Notes under the pieces: generated by a model
The model's input: only the letters and a program-made list of their open reading frames with translations
The model's database searches: none
Told to the model about the DNA's origin: nothing
Program-made: the position numbers and the translations under genes
Part shown: positions 4,874-13,326 of the stretch, piece by piece
Layout: each line of letters opens with the position of its first letter
How positions within the stretch are numbered: the first letter of the stretch is position 1
Assembly: GCA_003280605.1 (NCBI GenBank)
Contig: QCEM01000002.1
Coordinates: forward strand, 1 to 64,000
Direction of reading: 5' to 3'
DNA length: 64,000 nucleotides
Source of the DNA: SAR116 cluster bacterium AG-355-O21
GTDB lineage: Bacteria; Pseudomonadota; Alphaproteobacteria; Thalassobaculales; Thalassobaculaceae

Positions 4874-5752
4874 TCAGCGCGTCGGCACCGGCACGTCGCC
4901 CGAATAGTCATAAAACCCTCGGCCAGACTTCCGGCCAACCCAGCCGGCTTCAACATATTTGACCAGCAAAGGACAGGGCCGGTACTTGCTATCGGCCAGG
5001 CCGTCGTAAAGCACATGCATGACCGCCAGGCAGGTATCCAAACCAATAAAATCAGCAAGTTCAAGTGGCCCCATGGGGTGATTGGCACCCAGTTTCATGG
5101 CGGTATCAATTGACTGCACCGAGCCGACGCCCTCATACAAGGTGTAGACGGCCTCATTGATCATCGGCAGTAAAATGCGGTTAACGATAAAGGCCGGGAA
5201 ATCTTCTGCGACAGCGACGGTTTTACGAAGCCGGCCGGCCAAGTCATTGAAGGATTCGAATGTGGGCTGGTCGGTGGCGATGCCACGGATGATTTCAACC
5301 AATTTCATGACCGGCACCGGGTTCATGAAATGCAAACCAATGAACCGTTCCGGCCGATCGGTGGTTGCCGCCAACCGTGTGATGGAGATCGACGACGTGT
5401 TGGAAGCGATCAACGCCTGATCATGCAAATGTGGCACCAGGGTTTTGAAAATTTGGCGTTTAATGTCCTCATTTTCAGTTGCCGCTTCGACCACCGCATC
5501 ACTGGACCCAAAGGCGGCATAATCCGTTGTCGTGGTGATCCGCTCGATTGCGGCACTGACCTCGGTTTCGCTGATTCGGCCTCTGGCAACCTGCCGGTCA
5601 AGGTTGCTGCTGATGCTCTCCACGGCTTTATCAAGAACCGTTTGTTCAATATCCAGAAGGGTTACATCAAGCCCGGCGAGGGCACAGACATGGGCAATGC
5701 CGCTGCCCATTTGACCCGCACCAATCACGCCAATTTGTTGTATCATCGCCAC
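4874..5752 (-). CDS. 3-hydroxybutyryl-CoA dehydrogenase
   Basis: Interconverts acetoacetyl-CoA and 3-hydroxybutyryl-CoA with NAD(P)H. It has 292 residues, the normal length of the single-domain Hbd/PaaH type. The N-terminal Rossmann motif 'GAGQMGSGIA' binds the dinucleotide, the catalytic histidine lies in 'LHFMNPVPVMKLVEII', and the C-terminal helical domain has 'GANHPMGPLELADFIGLD' and ends with 'VGRKSGRGFYDY'. It is last in a minus-strand series after etfB and etfA. With the pathway genes further upstream, a role in butyryl/crotonyl-CoA metabolism fits better than general fatty-acid oxidation, but the sequence does not settle the chain length. Confidence 0.93.
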   Translation of the reverse strand: MAMIQQIGVIGAGQMGSGIAHVCALAGLDVTLLDIEQTVLDKAVESISSNLDRQVARGRISETEVSAAIERITTTTDYAAFGSSDAVVEAATENEDIKRQIFKTLVPHLHDQALIASNTSSISITRLAATTDRPERFIGLHFMNPVPVMKLVEIIRGIATDQPTFESFNDLAGRLRKTVAVAEDFPAFIVNRILLPMINEAVYTLYEGVGSVQSIDTAMKLGANHPMGPLELADFIGLDTCLAVMHVLYDGLADSKYRPCPLLVKYVEAGWVGRKSGRGFYDYSGDVPVPTR

Positions 5753-5814
5753 TGCTTCCGTTTTTTAGGTGCCTGCAGGACCCATGAAGTCACGCGCGCT
5801 GCAGGCCACCCAGA

Positions 5815-6753
5815 TTAGCTTTTGTCGAGTTCAGAGCTCAATTCAGGCACCGCATTGAACAGATCGGCAACCAAGCCATAGTCAGCAACTTGGAAGATCG
5901 GCGCTTCCTCGTCCTTGTTGATGGCGACAATGACTTTGGAATCTTTCATGCCGGCGAGATGCTGAATCGCGCCGGAAATACCAACGGCCACGTAAAGATC
6001 CGGCGCAACCACTTTGCCGGTTTGGCCAACCTGATAATCGTTCGGCACAAAGCCGGCATCAACCGCCGCCCGTGATGCACCGACGGCAGCGCCGAGTTTA
6101 TCGGCAACAGCTTCTAAAATCGGGAAGTTATCACCGGACTGCATGCCGCGACCACCTGAAATCACGATCGAGGCGCTGGTCAGCTCGGGCCGCTCCGAGC
6201 TGCTCAGTTCAGCACCGACATAGCTGGATAGACCCTGGTCGCCTTTTGCGCTCACGGCCTCAATCACGGCTGCGCCGCCGTCAGCGGCAACCGCTTCAAA
6301 GCCCGTTGTCCGCACCGTGATGACTTTAATAGCTTCTGCCGATTTGACGGTTGCCATAGCGTTACCGGCATAAATCGGCCGCACAAAGGTATCGCCGTCA
6401 ACAATCGCCGCAATGTCGGAAATTTGCATGACGTCCAACAGTGCTGCAACCCGTGGCATGATGTTTTTGCCATTTGAGGTTGCCGGTGCCAACACATGGC
6501 TGTAACCGCTGGCAAGATCCACAATCAAGGGCGCAACATTTTCTGCCAGGGTACTTTCATACTCAGCGCTATCGGCGCTCAATACTTTCGCCACGCCGCT
6601 GATTTTGCTGGCGGCCTCGGCGGCACTTGCCGAACCATTGCCGGCAACCAGCAGATGCACGTCACCGCCAAGCTCACCGGCGGCGGCAACAGCATTGAGG
6701 GTGGCAGGTTTGATTTCCGCATTATCGTGTTCAGCGATGACTAAAACGCTCAT
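5815..6753 (-). CDS. etfA: Electron transfer flavoprotein alpha subunit
   Basis: FAD-binding subunit of ETF, which takes electrons from acyl-CoA dehydrogenases and passes them to ETF:quinone oxidoreductase. It has 312 residues, full length. The N-terminal domain starts 'SVLVIAEHDNAEIKPATL', and the C-terminal FAD domain shows 'ISGGRGMQSGDNF', 'GQTGKVVAPDLY' and 'GISGAIQHLAGMKDSKVIVAIN', all ETF-alpha hallmarks. One base separates the end of etfB from its start. The methylsuccinyl-CoA dehydrogenase further upstream in the same orientation is a plausible electron donor. Confidence 0.96.
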   Translation of the reverse strand: MSVLVIAEHDNAEIKPATLNAVAAAGELGGDVHLLVAGNGSASAAEAASKISGVAKVLSADSAEYESTLAENVAPLIVDLASGYSHVLAPATSNGKNIMPRVAALLDVMQISDIAAIVDGDTFVRPIYAGNAMATVKSAEAIKVITVRTTGFEAVAADGGAAVIEAVSAKGDQGLSSYVGAELSSSERPELTSASIVISGGRGMQSGDNFPILEAVADKLGAAVGASRAAVDAGFVPNDYQVGQTGKVVAPDLYVAVGISGAIQHLAGMKDSKVIVAINKDEEAPIFQVADYGLVADLFNAVPELSSELDKS

Positions 6754-6754
6754 A

Positions 6755-7504
6755 TCAGATCACCTTTGCTTCATTTCGTAGTTTTTCGACAAGAGCAGCC
6801 ACATCCTCGACCATTTGACCTGCGTCGCGGGTCGCGGGCTCCTCGACTTTAAGGGTTTCCAGGCGCGGTGCCGGATCAACGCCCAGATCGCCCGGGGCGA
6901 CCTGATCAATCGGCTTTTTCTTGGCCTTCATGATGTTTGGCAGTGAGGCGTAGCGCGGCTCATTCAAGCGCAGATCCGAGGTCACCACGGCCGGCATTTT
7001 GAGTTGAACCGTCTGCAGACCGCCGTCAACCTCGCGGGTGACATGGATCGCGTCGCCCTCAACCTCTAATTTTGAGGCAAAAGTACCCTGCGACCAGCCC
7101 AGCAACGCCGATAGCATTTGACCGGTTTGATTGCAGTCATCGTCAATCGCTTGTTTGCCGACGATGACCAGGCCCGGCGCTTCTTTATCGACCAGTGCTT
7201 TCAACATCTTTGCAACCGCCAGAGGCTCTGTATCGCCGTCATGGAGCACATGGATGCCACGATCCGCACCCATCGCCAGGGCGGTTCGAATGGTTTCTTG
7301 GCATTGTTGCGGACCGACCGAGACGGCAACAATCTCATCAACTTTGCCGGCCTCTTTCAGGCGGATTGCCTCTTCAACGGAAATTTCATCAAAGGGGTTC
7401 ATCGACATTTTCACATTGGCCAGCTCAACGCCGCTTTTGTCGGCTTTGACTCGTACCTTAACGTTATAATCGATAACCCGTTTCACGGGCACCAAGACTT
7501 TCAT
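6755..7504 (-). CDS. etfB: Electron transfer flavoprotein beta subunit
   Basis: Partner of EtfA; carries the AMP site and the recognition loop that docks on dehydrogenases. It has 249 residues, full length. The start '[19 protein letters not shown]', '[18 protein letters not shown]', the AMP-binding segment '[16 protein letters not shown]' and the docking region '[21 protein letters not shown]' are all present. The two genes are separated by one base and are surely co-transcribed. About 146 bases lie between etfB and the adenosyltransferase gene upstream. Confidence 0.96.
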
Positions 7505-7650
7505 CAGACTTCCTCGTGGTTAGGGCGCATCGGCGCCAAAGTAACATTCCATTGAGGTGTGTAGGTTAAGCATTCGAAGCCGTCAAGCGACGCTGCGGCG
7601 GCGGCCCTAAAAAACGCTGCCTGACCAACCGCCCTCAAAAAGCTGTGCGG

Positions 7651-8277
7651 TTATTCGGCGTTGTCACGATGTGCCCCTGGAATCCAGAGGACGTCTTCTG
7701 CGCCGTCGGCATTTAAATGCCGCGCCAAGACAAAGAAAAAATCCGACAGTCGATTGATGTAGGCCAGCGCAACGCCGTTAATCGGGGCTTCAGCATTCAA
7801 TGTGGTCATCGCCCGTTCGGCCCGGCGTGCTACCGTCCGGGCCAAATGTGAATAGGCGGCCGCTGCCGAACCACCCGGCAAAATGAAAGATGTCAGCGGT
7901 GCCAGATTGGCATTTAGGCCGTCGATTTCGCGTTCTATCCTGTCGACCTGCGTCTGAATGACGCGCAACAGCGGATATTTTGGATCGGCAATTTCCGGTG
8001 TTGCCAAGTCGGCACCGAGATCAAATAAGTCATTTTGGATACGGCTCAGCATTTCATCAACGGCCGACGGTCCGGGCAGGTTTAGTCGCAGGATACCGAT
8101 CACACTGTTGAGCTCATCGACTTCGCCAAAAGCACTTGGCCGGCCACTGTCTTTACTGACGCGCGCCCCGTCGTTCAGCGAGGTCAGCCCCTTGTCGCCG
8201 CCGCGGGTGTATATTTTATCGAGTTTTACGATCGTTCCGCGCCTTTTACCCTGACTTTTGTAAAGCCATCCACGCAA
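7651..8277 (-). CDS. PduO-type cob(I)alamin adenosyltransferase
   Basis: Transfers the adenosyl group of ATP to cob(I)alamin, giving the coenzyme used by mutases such as ethylmalonyl- and methylmalonyl-CoA mutase. The N-terminal ATP-binding motif 'TRGGDKGLTSLNDGARVSK', the central 'FGEVDELNS', the active-site 'ARTVARRAERAM' and the C-terminal 'YINRLSDFFFVLARHLN' are typical. The usual family start (MVKL...) reads ATC-GTA-AAA here, so no ATG, GTG or TTG lies at the expected place. The nearest accepted codon is TTG at 8277, which adds 16 residues and overlaps the upstream gene by 32 bases. Start therefore uncertain; an ATC start at 8232 is the alternative. Confidence 0.9.
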   Translation of the reverse strand: MRGWLYKSQGKRRGTIVKLDKIYTRGGDKGLTSLNDGARVSKDSGRPSAFGEVDELNSVIGILRLNLPGPSAVDEMLSRIQNDLFDLGADLATPEIADPKYPLLRVIQTQVDRIEREIDGLNANLAPLTSFILPGGSAAAAYSHLARTVARRAERAMTTLNAEAPINGVALAYINRLSDFFFVLARHLNADGAEDVLWIPGAHRDNAE

Positions 8278-8506: not shown

Positions 8507-10219
8507 TTAGTTGCGCGGTGCCAGCAAGCCACGGGCGATCACCTGCGCTTGAATTTCAGCGGCACCTTCAAAAATATTCAAGATCCGCGCGTCACATAGA
8601 ACCCGGCTAATGGCATATTCCTCGGCATAGCCATTGCCGCCATGGATTTGCAGGGCATTGTCAGCGCTTGCCCAGGCTGCCCGTGCGGCCAGGAGTTTCG
8701 CCATCCCGGCTTCGATGTCGCAGCGGCGATCTAAATCTTTCTCACGGGCCGCGAAATAGGTCAGCTGGCGGGCCATCATGGTTTCCACGGCCATCATCGC
8801 AAGCTTGTTGGCGACCCGCGGGAAATGCACGATCGGTTGCCCAAATTGATGCCTGTCACGGCCATAGCTGAGCGCCAATTCAAGGGCATTCTGCGACACG
8901 CCGACGGCGCGCGCGGCAGTTTGAATGCGCGCCGATTCAAAGGTCGCCATTAACTGCTTGAAGCCTTCGCCCTCACGGCCACCAAGCAAGTTATCGGCCT
9001 TCACCTCAAAGCCGTCAAAGCCAAGTTCGTATTCTTTCATCCCACGATAGCCGAGCACCCCGATTTCACCGCCGGTCATGCCGGTTGCCGGGAACGGCGC
9101 GTCATCGTCGCCGCGCGGCTTTTCGGCCAGGAACATCGATAGCCCCTTGTAGCCCGGGGTGTTTGTGTCGGTGCGGGCCAGCAAGGTCATGACGTCGGCG
9201 CGGGCGGCATGGGTAATCCAGGTTTTATTGCCGGTAATCCGGTAAACATCGCCGTCACGGACAGCGCGTGTTTTCAGGCTGGCCAGATCAGAGCCTGTTC
9301 CCGGTTCGGTAAAGACGGCTGTCGGCAGAATTTCGCCGCTGGCAATCTTTGGCAGCCAGTGAGCTTGTTGGTCTTCGGTTCCGCCCAAACGGATCAATTC
9401 GGCAGCGATTTCGGAGCGGGTGCTGAGCGAGCCGACGCCAATATACGCACGGCTTAATTCCTCGGTGACCACACACATAGCCAGCTTGCCAAGGCCAAGA
9501 CCGCCAAATTCTTCCGGGACCGTTAAGCCAAACACCCCGAGACCGGCCATTTCATCGATCACCGACATCGGAATCAGGTCATCTGCGAGATGCCATTCAT
9601 GCGCAAAGGGTGCCACTTTATCGGCGGCGAAACGGCTGAACTGTTCTTGGATCATGACCAAGGTTTCATCACCGAGCGCCAGCTCACCGAATAATTGCTG
9701 ATCGGCGCCGTCGAGCAAGGCCTCGGCCAAACCTGCGCGGGCGGCCATTGAATTGCCGTCGGAGGCCAAGGTGCCGGCGGCACCTGCCGTCAAATACTGT
9801 TGCGCCGCCGCTTGCAGATCAAGGTCATTAGGACGCACCATTTCACCCTGGCTCATGGGCAGTCCGCCCCGCAGCTGGTTGATGTATTCGGCAAATCCAA
9901 GTTGCAAAATCAAGGCTTCCAGGGTGCCGAGTTTGGCCTCGCCGTGCAGGCGCTCGGCCCAACCGATTAACTGCTCAAGAGCTGCCGCATAGGTTGCGAT
10001 CCAGGCAAAGCCATGGGCTGCGTGCTGCTCTGCCTCCAGTCGATCCGCCAGCGTCTTACCGGCCGGCGCGACACGCAGCATAAGGGCTGTCCGCGCCGCT
10101 TCACGGTAGGCGATAATCTGGTCGGTGGCCGCGCGGCAGGTGCTCAGCAGATTTGGCATAACCGCATCGGTTTGCGCGGCGGTTTTTTGTTTGGCAATCG
10201 GCTCGGCGGTGAGGCTCAT
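8507..10219 (-). CDS. mcd: Methylsuccinyl-CoA dehydrogenase (long acyl-CoA dehydrogenase)
   Basis: 570 residues: an N-terminal helical extension of about 170 residues precedes a full acyl-CoA dehydrogenase (from about residue 185). The core has the conserved 'PEEFGGLGLG', FAD/substrate segments 'TEPGTGSDLASLKTRA' and 'GNKTWITHAA', and the C-terminal 'ADNALQIHGGNGYAEEY' region. That extension is the mark of methylsuccinyl-CoA dehydrogenase of the ethylmalonyl-CoA pathway, which oxidises (2S)-methylsuccinyl-CoA to mesaconyl-CoA and reduces ETF. Its position upstream of etfBA and beside remnants of ccr and ecm supports this over a general fatty-acyl enzyme. The gene itself is intact. No catalytic assignment beyond family is made from sequence. 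Confidence 0.88.
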   Translation of the reverse strand: MSLTAEPIAKQKTAAQTDAVMPNLLSTCRAATDQIIAYREAARTALMLRVAPAGKTLADRLEAEQHAAHGFAWIATYAAALEQLIGWAERLHGEAKLGTLEALILQLGFAEYINQLRGGLPMSQGEMVRPNDLDLQAAAQQYLTAGAAGTLASDGNSMAARAGLAEALLDGADQQLFGELALGDETLVMIQEQFSRFAADKVAPFAHEWHLADDLIPMSVIDEMAGLGVFGLTVPEEFGGLGLGKLAMCVVTEELSRAYIGVGSLSTRSEIAAELIRLGGTEDQQAHWLPKIASGEILPTAVFTEPGTGSDLASLKTRAVRDGDVYRITGNKTWITHAARADVMTLLARTDTNTPGYKGLSMFLAEKPRGDDDAPFPATGMTGGEIGVLGYRGMKEYELGFDGFEVKADNLLGGREGEGFKQLMATFESARIQTAARAVGVSQNALELALSYGRDRHQFGQPIVHFPRVANKLAMMAVETMMARQLTYFAAREKDLDRRCDIEAGMAKLLAARAAWASADNALQIHGGNGYAEEYAISRVLCDARILNIFEGAAEIQAQVIARGLLAPRN

Positions 10220-10293: not shown

Positions 10294-11061
10294 TTAAAAG
10301 GCCGCACCATCTGCCGCCGAATCCGCATCAGCGACCACATCTTCCAAACTCCGGTGGCCGGGGCTGCGCGCCTGCACCAAGACAGCCATATTTCCGGGAT
10401 GGTATTTGTTGTTCATCATTTTGGTATGGGCGGCAGGAATTTCTGGCCAACTTAAAACCTCCGACATGCATGGCTCGACCCGCCGTTCGATGACCAATTG
10501 ATTGGCTTGCGAGGCTTGCAGCAGATTGGCAAAATAGCTGCCTTGAATGCGTTTTTGCCGCATCCAAACAAAATGCGCATCAAAGCTGATGTTATAGCCT
10601 GTGGTGCCGGCACAAAACACCACCATACCGCCGCGCTTAACCACGAAGGTGGAAACTGGGAAGGTCGCCTCCCCGGGATGTTCAAAAACGAAATCCACAT
10701 CATTACCGTTGCCGGTAATGGCCCAGATCGCTTTGCCGAACTGGCGTACCCGCCGCATATAATCGGGGTATTCCGCCGATTCCACGGCCGGCATTTGCTC
10801 CCAGCAGTCGAAATCGCGCCGATTGATTGCCCCCGTCGCCCCGAGATGGGTCACGAAACTGCGCTTTTCCTCATCGGAAATGATCGCAATCGCATGTGCG
10901 CCAGCAGTGGCAATTAACTGGATCGCCATCGATCCAAGACCGCCCGCCGCCCCCCAAACCAGGACGTTGTGCCCGTGCCTGAGAATATGCGGGCGATGGC
11001 CGAACAGCATCCGATAGGCGGTCGCCAGGGGCAGCATATAGCAGCTACCGTATTCTGCTGC
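10294..11061 (-). pseudogene. ccr: Crotonyl-CoA carboxylase/reductase, N-terminal part missing
   Basis: About 255 residues match the C-terminal three fifths of Ccr, the NADPH-dependent enzyme that makes ethylmalonyl-CoA from crotonyl-CoA and CO2. Recognisable Ccr stretches are 'LATAYRMLFGHRPH', the nucleotide-binding 'VLVWGAAGGLGSMAIQL', 'FGKAIWAITGNGNDVDFVFE' with 'HPGEATFPVS' of the CO2/CoA region, and 'PCMSEVLSWPEIPAAH'. The C-terminus is normal. On the N-terminal side, Ccr similarity is lost near 11045-11080, roughly 185 residues short of a full protein of about 430. Sequence belonging to ethylmalonyl-CoA mutase, on the other strand, begins at that point. The open frame extends to a TTG at 11118 but those residues come from the mutase gene read backwards. 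The catalytic N-terminal domain is lost, so it should be inactive. Confidence 0.88.
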
Positions 11062-11063
11062 AA

Positions 11064-12214
11064 ATGCTGGCTGTGGTGATGTCAAAAAATGCCCGCGCAC
11101 GGGTAATTCAATTGCCAACCTGCAATGAGGCCTTAGGCCTGCCCCGGCCCTGGGATCAGCAATGGAGCCTTCGGTTGCAGCAGGTCGTTGCCTATGAGAC
11201 TGATCTTCTCGGCTTTGAGGACATCTTTGACGGCAGTGCGGTGATGGCCGCTGAGGAACAGCGCTTAAACCAGGCGGCAGAGGCTATAATCGCTGATATT
11301 GCGGCGGCGGGCGGCATGTTGGAAGCCTTGCAGCGGGGCGACCTAAAGGCGCAATTGGTGGCCAGTAATGCGGCCCGGCTCGCGGCGATCGAAAACAGCC
11401 GGCAGCCGGTGGTTGGGGTAAATTGTTTTCAGGAAACGGCAGCATCGCCGCTGGCCGCAGGTCAGGGCAGCAATTACCTAAGTGTTGATCCAGCGGTAGA
11501 AAAATCTCAAATTCATGACCTCAAAGCGTGGCGTAAGGGACGAGATGCCGATCAGGTGGCGGCAAGCCTGGCGGCATTACAGGCGGCAGCCCGCGCCGGT
11601 GATAACATCATGCCGCCGTCGATTGCTTGTGCCCATGCCAAAGTCACAACCGGCGAATGGGCCGACGCCTTGCGCCAGGTCTTTGGTGTTTTTCGACCAC
11701 CGACCGGTGTTGACGGCTTGCTTACGGATCGCGCCGATGCCGAATTCACGGCGCTGACGGCAGCGGTTGCCGGGTTACACGCGAAACTTGGCCGGGCACC
11801 GAAACTCTTGATCGGAAAACCCGGCCTTGATGGCCACAGTAACGGTGCCGAGCAGATTGCGGTTCTGGCCAACACCGTTGGTTTTGACGTTGACTATGCA
11901 GGCATCCGCTGGACCGTTGATGATATTTTGCAACGTGTTACCGACGGTTGCCCCGATGCTGTCGGCCTGTCGATTTTGTCAGGCGCACATATGGCCATGG
12001 TCTCGGCGTTTTTGGCGGGACTGAAAGCCGCCCAGCCATCGCCGACCGCCGCCGCGCGGCGCTTGACACCGGTGGTGGTGGTCGGTGGGATTGTGCCGGC
12101 GGCCAATGCCGAGCAGTTAACCCAGGCAGGCGTGCCGCCGTGTATACGCCCAAGGACTTCGCCCTGACGCAGATCTTGCACGATATCGTGCAATACATCA
12201 CCAAGCGTCATTAA
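11064..12214 (+). pseudogene. ecm: Ethylmalonyl-CoA mutase, N-terminal half missing and frameshifted near the end
   Basis: From about 11080 the reading frame matches the middle of Ecm ('ARARVIQLPT', 'LGLPRPWDQQWSLRLQQVV', 'AYETDLLGFEDIFDG'). It continues through the linker to the B12-binding domain with the cobalamin motif DxHxxG in 'KPGLDGHSNGAEQIA' and the later 'SILSG' and 'VVGGIVP' loops. The first 250-300 residues, most of the CoA-binding barrel, are absent. Near 12137 the frame changes: the expected valine-alanine-alanine run has lost one base, so the translated frame ends in an unrelated tail at 12167. The true C-terminus ('VYTPKDFALTQILHDIVQY') continues in another frame to the TAA at 12212-12214. 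It faces ccr head to head with no intergenic space. Confidence 0.88.
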
Positions 12215-12432: not shown

Positions 12433-12444
12433 GCGAACTGCGTG

Positions 12445-13326
12445 ATGTCTAGCACAAACCGTCGTGAATTTGGTTATATGGGGCATATTCGGCTGTGTAA
12501 CCGCCATGATATGACGCAATTTCGGCCATGGTGGATTGGTGACGCCTTGGTTGGTTATCTGCGCCCGCGTTTTGCCGGCCGACTGCTGGAATTCGGTAAT
12601 GTTTTCAGCCAAGGTCCGGGCGGCGGGGTGCGTGTGCATCCAGCCCTGGCCAGCTTTTCAGATCGTACCGAAGCTGTGGCGGCGGTGTTAGACATTCTGT
12701 GGGCCGGCGGTGAAGCAGGCCGGCAGCGGGAGGAATATTATGGCGTCGTGACCACAATCGGTGCGCCGCCGTTGATGGCCATTGATCGCGGCGCGGTGAC
12801 GCATTTTGGGGTGATCAGCGGTGGCTTTCATTTGAACGGCATTGTCCGTGGCCATGACCGGGATCACATGTGGGTGGCGCGGCGTGCGAAGACCAAGTCA
12901 ACCTACCCCGACATGCTTGATAATATGGTTGCAGGCGGTCACCCGATCGGGCTGACGGCTCAGGAAAATTTACGCAAAGAATGTTTTGAAGAAGCTGGAA
13001 TCCCTACGTCACTGGCCGATCAGGCGGTTGCGGTCGGGATCAGCAGCTACACGATGGAAGTTGACGAAGGTCTGCGACGACACGCTTTTTTCATTTATGA
13101 TTTAGATGTGCCGTCAGAGTTTCGCCCACAGCCTGTGGATGGCGAAGTTGCTGAATTTAACTTGATGGCCGTTGATCAGGTGGCGGCGATTGTACGCCAG
13201 GGACAGGCTTTTAAATTTAACTGCAATCTGGTGTTGATCGATTACTTCGTGCGCACTGGCATGATCACCCCCGATGACGCCGACTATTTTCGGATCGTCA
13301 CAGGCCTGCACCCGGCTTTACCGTAG
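12445..13326 (+). CDS. NUDIX hydrolase with N-terminal DUF4743 domain
   Basis: 293 residues. The N-terminal part ('MGHIRLCNRHDMTQFRPWWI' region) matches DUF4743, and the C-terminal part is a NUDIX domain. The Nudix box is recognisable as 'GGHPIGLTAQENLRKECFEEAG', here split for length: GGHPIG then ENLRKECFEEAG, with the metal-binding E-x-x-E. DUF4743-NUDIX proteins are related to plant/yeast TPP-pyrophosphokinase-linked hydrolases that remove oxidised or damaged thiamine diphosphates; substrate here is inferred only by family. Possible starts are GTG 12442, ATG 12445 and ATG 12478; the last begins nearer to the family's N-terminus, and none has a strong ribosome binding site. Confidence 0.85.
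   Translation: MSSTNRREFGYMGHIRLCNRHDMTQFRPWWIGDALVGYLRPRFAGRLLEFGNVFSQGPGGGVRVHPALASFSDRTEAVAAVLDILWAGGEAGRQREEYYGVVTTIGAPPLMAIDRGAVTHFGVISGGFHLNGIVRGHDRDHMWVARRAKTKSTYPDMLDNMVAGGHPIGLTAQENLRKECFEEAGIPTSLADQAVAVGISSYTMEVDEGLRRHAFFIYDLDVPSEFRPQPVDGEVAEFNLMAVDQVAAIVRQGQAFKFNCNLVLIDYFVRTGMITPDDADYFRIVTGLHPALP

Follow-up and report, generated by a model that had tools for sequence, protein, structure and literature searches.

Two genes of the ethylmalonyl-CoA pathway, ccr and ecm, stand head to head in the genome of SAR116 cluster bacterium AG-355-O21, and each lacks its beginning. Did a real deletion remove the 5′ halves of both genes at once, or did the assembly join pieces that do not belong together? 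The original prediction proposed one deletion across a divergent gene pair, with an assembly join as the alternative. The window, that is, the whole stretch of DNA analysed, is the first 64 kb (64,000 nucleotides) of contig C2 in a fragmented draft assembly of 2.58 Mb in 119 contigs, 84.4% complete, and it contains these features:

4874 to 8277, minus strand: 3-hydroxyacyl-CoA dehydrogenase, etfA, etfB and a pduO-type adenosyltransferase, a conserved part of the same cluster
8507 to 10219, minus strand: mcd, methylsuccinyl-CoA dehydrogenase, an intact neighbour (6es9, E 4.1e-220 over residues 24-566)
10294 to 11043, minus strand: ccr remnant, the C-terminal 249 codons of crotonyl-CoA carboxylase/reductase, with an open frame and a normal C-terminus
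11043 to 11046, no strand: probable deletion junction, with the last Ccr base at 11043 and the first Ecm base at 11046
11046 to 12214, plus strand: ecm remnant, C-terminal ethylmalonyl-CoA mutase, comprising the end of the barrel domain and the B12-binding domain with DGHSNG
12442 to 13326, plus strand: DUF4743-Nudix protein, the right-hand flank, which in the sister species G001 is next to mcd and faces it

On the minus strand, the frame at 10294-11118 corresponds to Ccr from residue 182 of the Methylobacterium enzyme (4gi2) onward, with residues 182-428 matched at an E-value of 1.3e-114, and the TIGR01751 model aligns with the remnant over positions 155-395 of 398 at 327.2 bits, which does not reach its curated cut-off of 378.55. 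In an alignment with 34 Ccr homologues, the first conserved residue is the Cys of EESA/CYTLTLATAYRML at 11043 (the slash marks the breakpoint), and the loss comes to about 185 N-terminal residues, as had been predicted. The TTG at 11118 and the N-terminal 24-25 codons of the frame contain no Ccr sequence; everything that precedes the Cys in this alignment is ecm read in antisense. The N-terminal domain, which forms part of the CO2 pocket, is missing, and we take the Asn, Phe and Glu positions of that pocket to lie N-terminal of the breakpoint. Asn, Phe and Glu are the residue types described for the CO2 pocket of Ccr (PMC10176493).

On the plus strand, the first recognisable residue in an alignment with 34 homologues is the Tyr of PENNV/YRILLEML at 11046. 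It corresponds to residue 287 in a 671-residue reference, so that about 286 N-terminal residues are lost, within the 250-300 originally estimated, and the substrate-binding barrel domain is incomplete. Homology to Ecm thus begins upstream of the ATG at 11064 that opens the frame matching ethylmalonyl-CoA mutase. Against methylmalonyl-CoA mutases the fragment aligns from residue 362-379, and its identity is about 50-54% to the best Ecms compared with about 30% to the methylmalonyl-CoA mutase (MCM) of the same genome; by these alignments, it is nearer to Ecm than to methylmalonyl-CoA mutase. A second lesion, overlooked in the original prediction, lies near 12134-12140, where ecm is frameshifted, and the normal C-terminus of Ecm, YTPKDFALTQILHDIVQYITKRH, sits in a different frame ending at 12214.

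Only two bases (11044-11045) separate the conserved blocks of Ccr and Ecm and belong to neither, which bears out the claim that both genes end at one breakpoint with no intergenic DNA between them. At 11064-11118, the start codons of the two remnant frames fall within, or antisense to, one another, and automatic annotation of this interval would probably give two overlapping divergent genes. If the fragments were labelled ‘Ccr’ and ‘Ecm’, the ethylmalonyl-CoA pathway would be attributed to the genome in error.

Most of the alphaproteobacterial loci found to contain both genes have ccr and ecm side by side in divergent orientation, as in the pair RSP_0960 and RSP_0961 of Rhodobacter sphaeroides (PMC6747724), which are the same two genes as here. 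The divergent order holds in the relatives examined, and the mcd-pduO-etf surroundings are common to several outgroups and to this genome, in which the pair has lost its 5′ halves together with the DNA between the genes. Intact divergent genes in Thalassospira, Sneathiella, Kiloniella, Magnetovibrio and others have about 1.55-1.7 kb between the points that match the two breakpoints, and this is the amount missing at the junction relative to those relatives. The order etfAB-pduO-mcd-ccr is the same in the outgroups G051, G036 and G038; an intact divergent ecm follows beyond ccr in G051 and, a few kilobases further off, in G038, while the G036 contig stops inside ccr. The intact ccr/ecm cluster is, as read from these gene orders, the ancestral state.

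Because the matching breakpoints lie so close together in relatives with intact divergent genes, one deletion explains the junction, as the original prediction supposed, and a single event could hit two genes of the same pathway because divergent ccr and ecm start next to each other. We consider it very probable that the junction was made by a single real deletion of about 1.6 kb, as one step in the stage-by-stage dismantling of this pathway. Lost in this event would be ~185 codons at the start of ccr, ~286 at the start of ecm and the promoter region between them, and the two surviving 3′ parts would have been left head to head, with no more than two ambiguous bases at the join. The genes would now both be unitary pseudogenes with no start, no promoter and no complete active sites, ecm being frameshifted as well. 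Constraint on both genes probably weakened first, and the deletion and frameshift would then have followed, as part of a dismantling across the family, in the course of which this segment has disappeared entirely from the sister species. The mechanism itself is ordinary gene decay and well resolved: one deletion, two pseudogenes and a lineage discarding the pathway. As in other unitary pseudogenes that arose from one internal deletion while a pathway was being lost, native order and orientation are kept, the junction is near-blunt, additional lesions are present and the genes are missing from sister lineages; unlike the usual case, two divergent genes of one pathway are inactivated together.

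The principal alternative is an assembly error, either about 1.6 kb skipped or two strains joined, in an organism whose own genes are intact. A draft this fragmented and incomplete leaves room for such an error, as does the intact ancestral cluster; nevertheless, we judge it improbable. A genome-wide search with a joined query of the N-terminal parts of Ccr and Ecm did not find the lost 5′ halves anywhere in the assembly, matching just MCM subunits, weak candidates at E of at least 0.003 and the junction itself, and no second copy of either gene was found in the 84%-complete assembly, the outcome that the prediction required for its metabolic conclusion. The independent frameshift in ecm also argues against a mere misjoin. 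Contamination of the contig was rejected, since gene order and protein identities of 49-86% agree with G001, the only other genome of the genus compared.

G001, a sister species in the same genus, has the order etfA-etfB-pduO-mcd-Nudix-rraA as here, and the two genomes share gene order across eleven genes, the neighbouring genes compared being unbroken in this genome. In G001 mcd and the Nudix gene face each other directly; the syntenic region contains no trace of ccr or ecm, and the 263 bp between mcd and Nudix hold no convincing relic of either. Ccr was found in none of the 35 other family genomes (all 36 were searched, and this genome is the only carrier), and Ecm in none of the 34 others searched, in which any matches above threshold were methylmalonyl-CoA mutase-like, at about 36-39% identity. 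Since the family has lost ccr and ecm, an assembly error would have had to land by chance on the very two genes that the lineage lost anyway. The locus seems to show a central carbon pathway midway through its loss: outgroups keep it and the sister has erased it.

The 1.7 kb mcd-Nudix interval of other family members was considered as a ccr/ecm relic and rejected, as two different ORFs lie there. In L127, L128, L129, L131 and L141, the position of ccr/ecm, with pduO/mcd on one side and the Nudix gene on the other, is taken by two conserved ORFs; by eye, one ends in a J-domain-like RWRRLAMIYHPDSAFGDH and the other resembles a small ACT-like protein, and neither had a Pfam match in L128, where this was checked.

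The remnants also evolve fast, which counts against an assembly error as well. Measured to the same seven outgroups, the distance of ccr is 1.38 times and that of ecm 1.41 times the outgroup mean, compared with 0.84-1.04 times for etfA, etfB, pduO and mcd, so that the acceleration is confined to ccr and ecm among the six genes compared. In trees of 35 sequences each, both remnants have the longest terminal branch (0.279 for ccr; 0.888 for ecm, where the next is 0.482), although these branches also take in the g1 stem, which lengthens them, as no other member of that genus carries the genes. Of the columns that do not vary among the other 34 sequences, this genome departs from 6 of 94 in Ccr and 7 of 96 in Ecm, more often than any of the 34 homologues does, with G051 coming near. 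The deletion and the frameshift in ecm aside, neither remnant frame contains a stop. About seven would be expected had the excess divergence of ecm built up neutrally, so neutral decay alone is unlikely to account for the ecm acceleration; most of the acceleration would have preceded final inactivation, and the loss would be recent relative to it. Taken together, these comparisons make a real and fairly recent deletion, in a pathway whose dismantling was already under way, much likelier than an assembly artefact.

Could the truncated frames still be expressed and used, for instance with the Ecm remnant as a B12-binding protein? Frames open over 249 codons in ccr and about 363 in ecm, and the retained DGHSNG motif, speak for such use; we regard it as very unlikely, given that the native starts and promoter region are lost, that ecm is frameshifted near its end, that conserved positions are altered so often and that the sister discarded both genes. 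Acquisition by transfer of an already broken fragment, which the absence of the genes from every other family genome might suggest, is scarcely credible when the remnants sit exactly at the outgroups' ccr/ecm site beside mcd and pduO-etfBA, have similar GC by codon position, and belong to a genus, g1, that a five-gene tree places as sister to the other sampled family members, so that vertical inheritance and a separate loss in the remainder of the family suffice.

With a real deletion as the preferred reading, the predicted loss of the carboxylating and mutase steps holds and extends to mesaconyl-CoA hydratase (Mch, PF19315), whose full-length form is absent from this genome and the family (partial matches of about 150 residues, or none), while all searched non-family genomes with Ccr have near whole-length PF19315 matches. 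Mcd and methylmalonyl-CoA mutase are retained. A search for isocitrate lyase found none in this genome (84% complete) or in G001 (69% complete), which is suggestive of true absence; the enzyme is present in the larger-genome family genera g2, g3, g5, g6 and g12 and was not found in most smaller ones. Neither common route of acetyl-CoA assimilation is visible in this genome, and part of family f1 appears to lack both. Paracoccus denitrificans without ccr or icl shows growth defects on a shift to acetate (PMC6747724), which makes growth of this organism on acetate as sole carbon source doubtful.

The Mcd encoded here is intact, with an ordinary rate of evolution and with 6es9 as its closest PDB entry, and G001 and nine other family genomes without Ccr retain Mcd too. 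It is thus an orphan methylsuccinyl-CoA dehydrogenase in a family without Ccr, Ecm or full-length Mch (8507-10219 in the window; L126-L135), which raises the question of its present substrate. Tentatively, Mcd may outlive the ethylmalonyl-CoA pathway, perhaps with another acyl-CoA oxidation, in a genus g1 that may rely on neither that pathway nor the glyoxylate shunt. In G053, a genome of the same class (100% complete, 1.7 Mb) where neither Ccr nor a true Ecm was found at the thresholds used, a strong Mcd match is accompanied by a near full-length MC_hydratase match.
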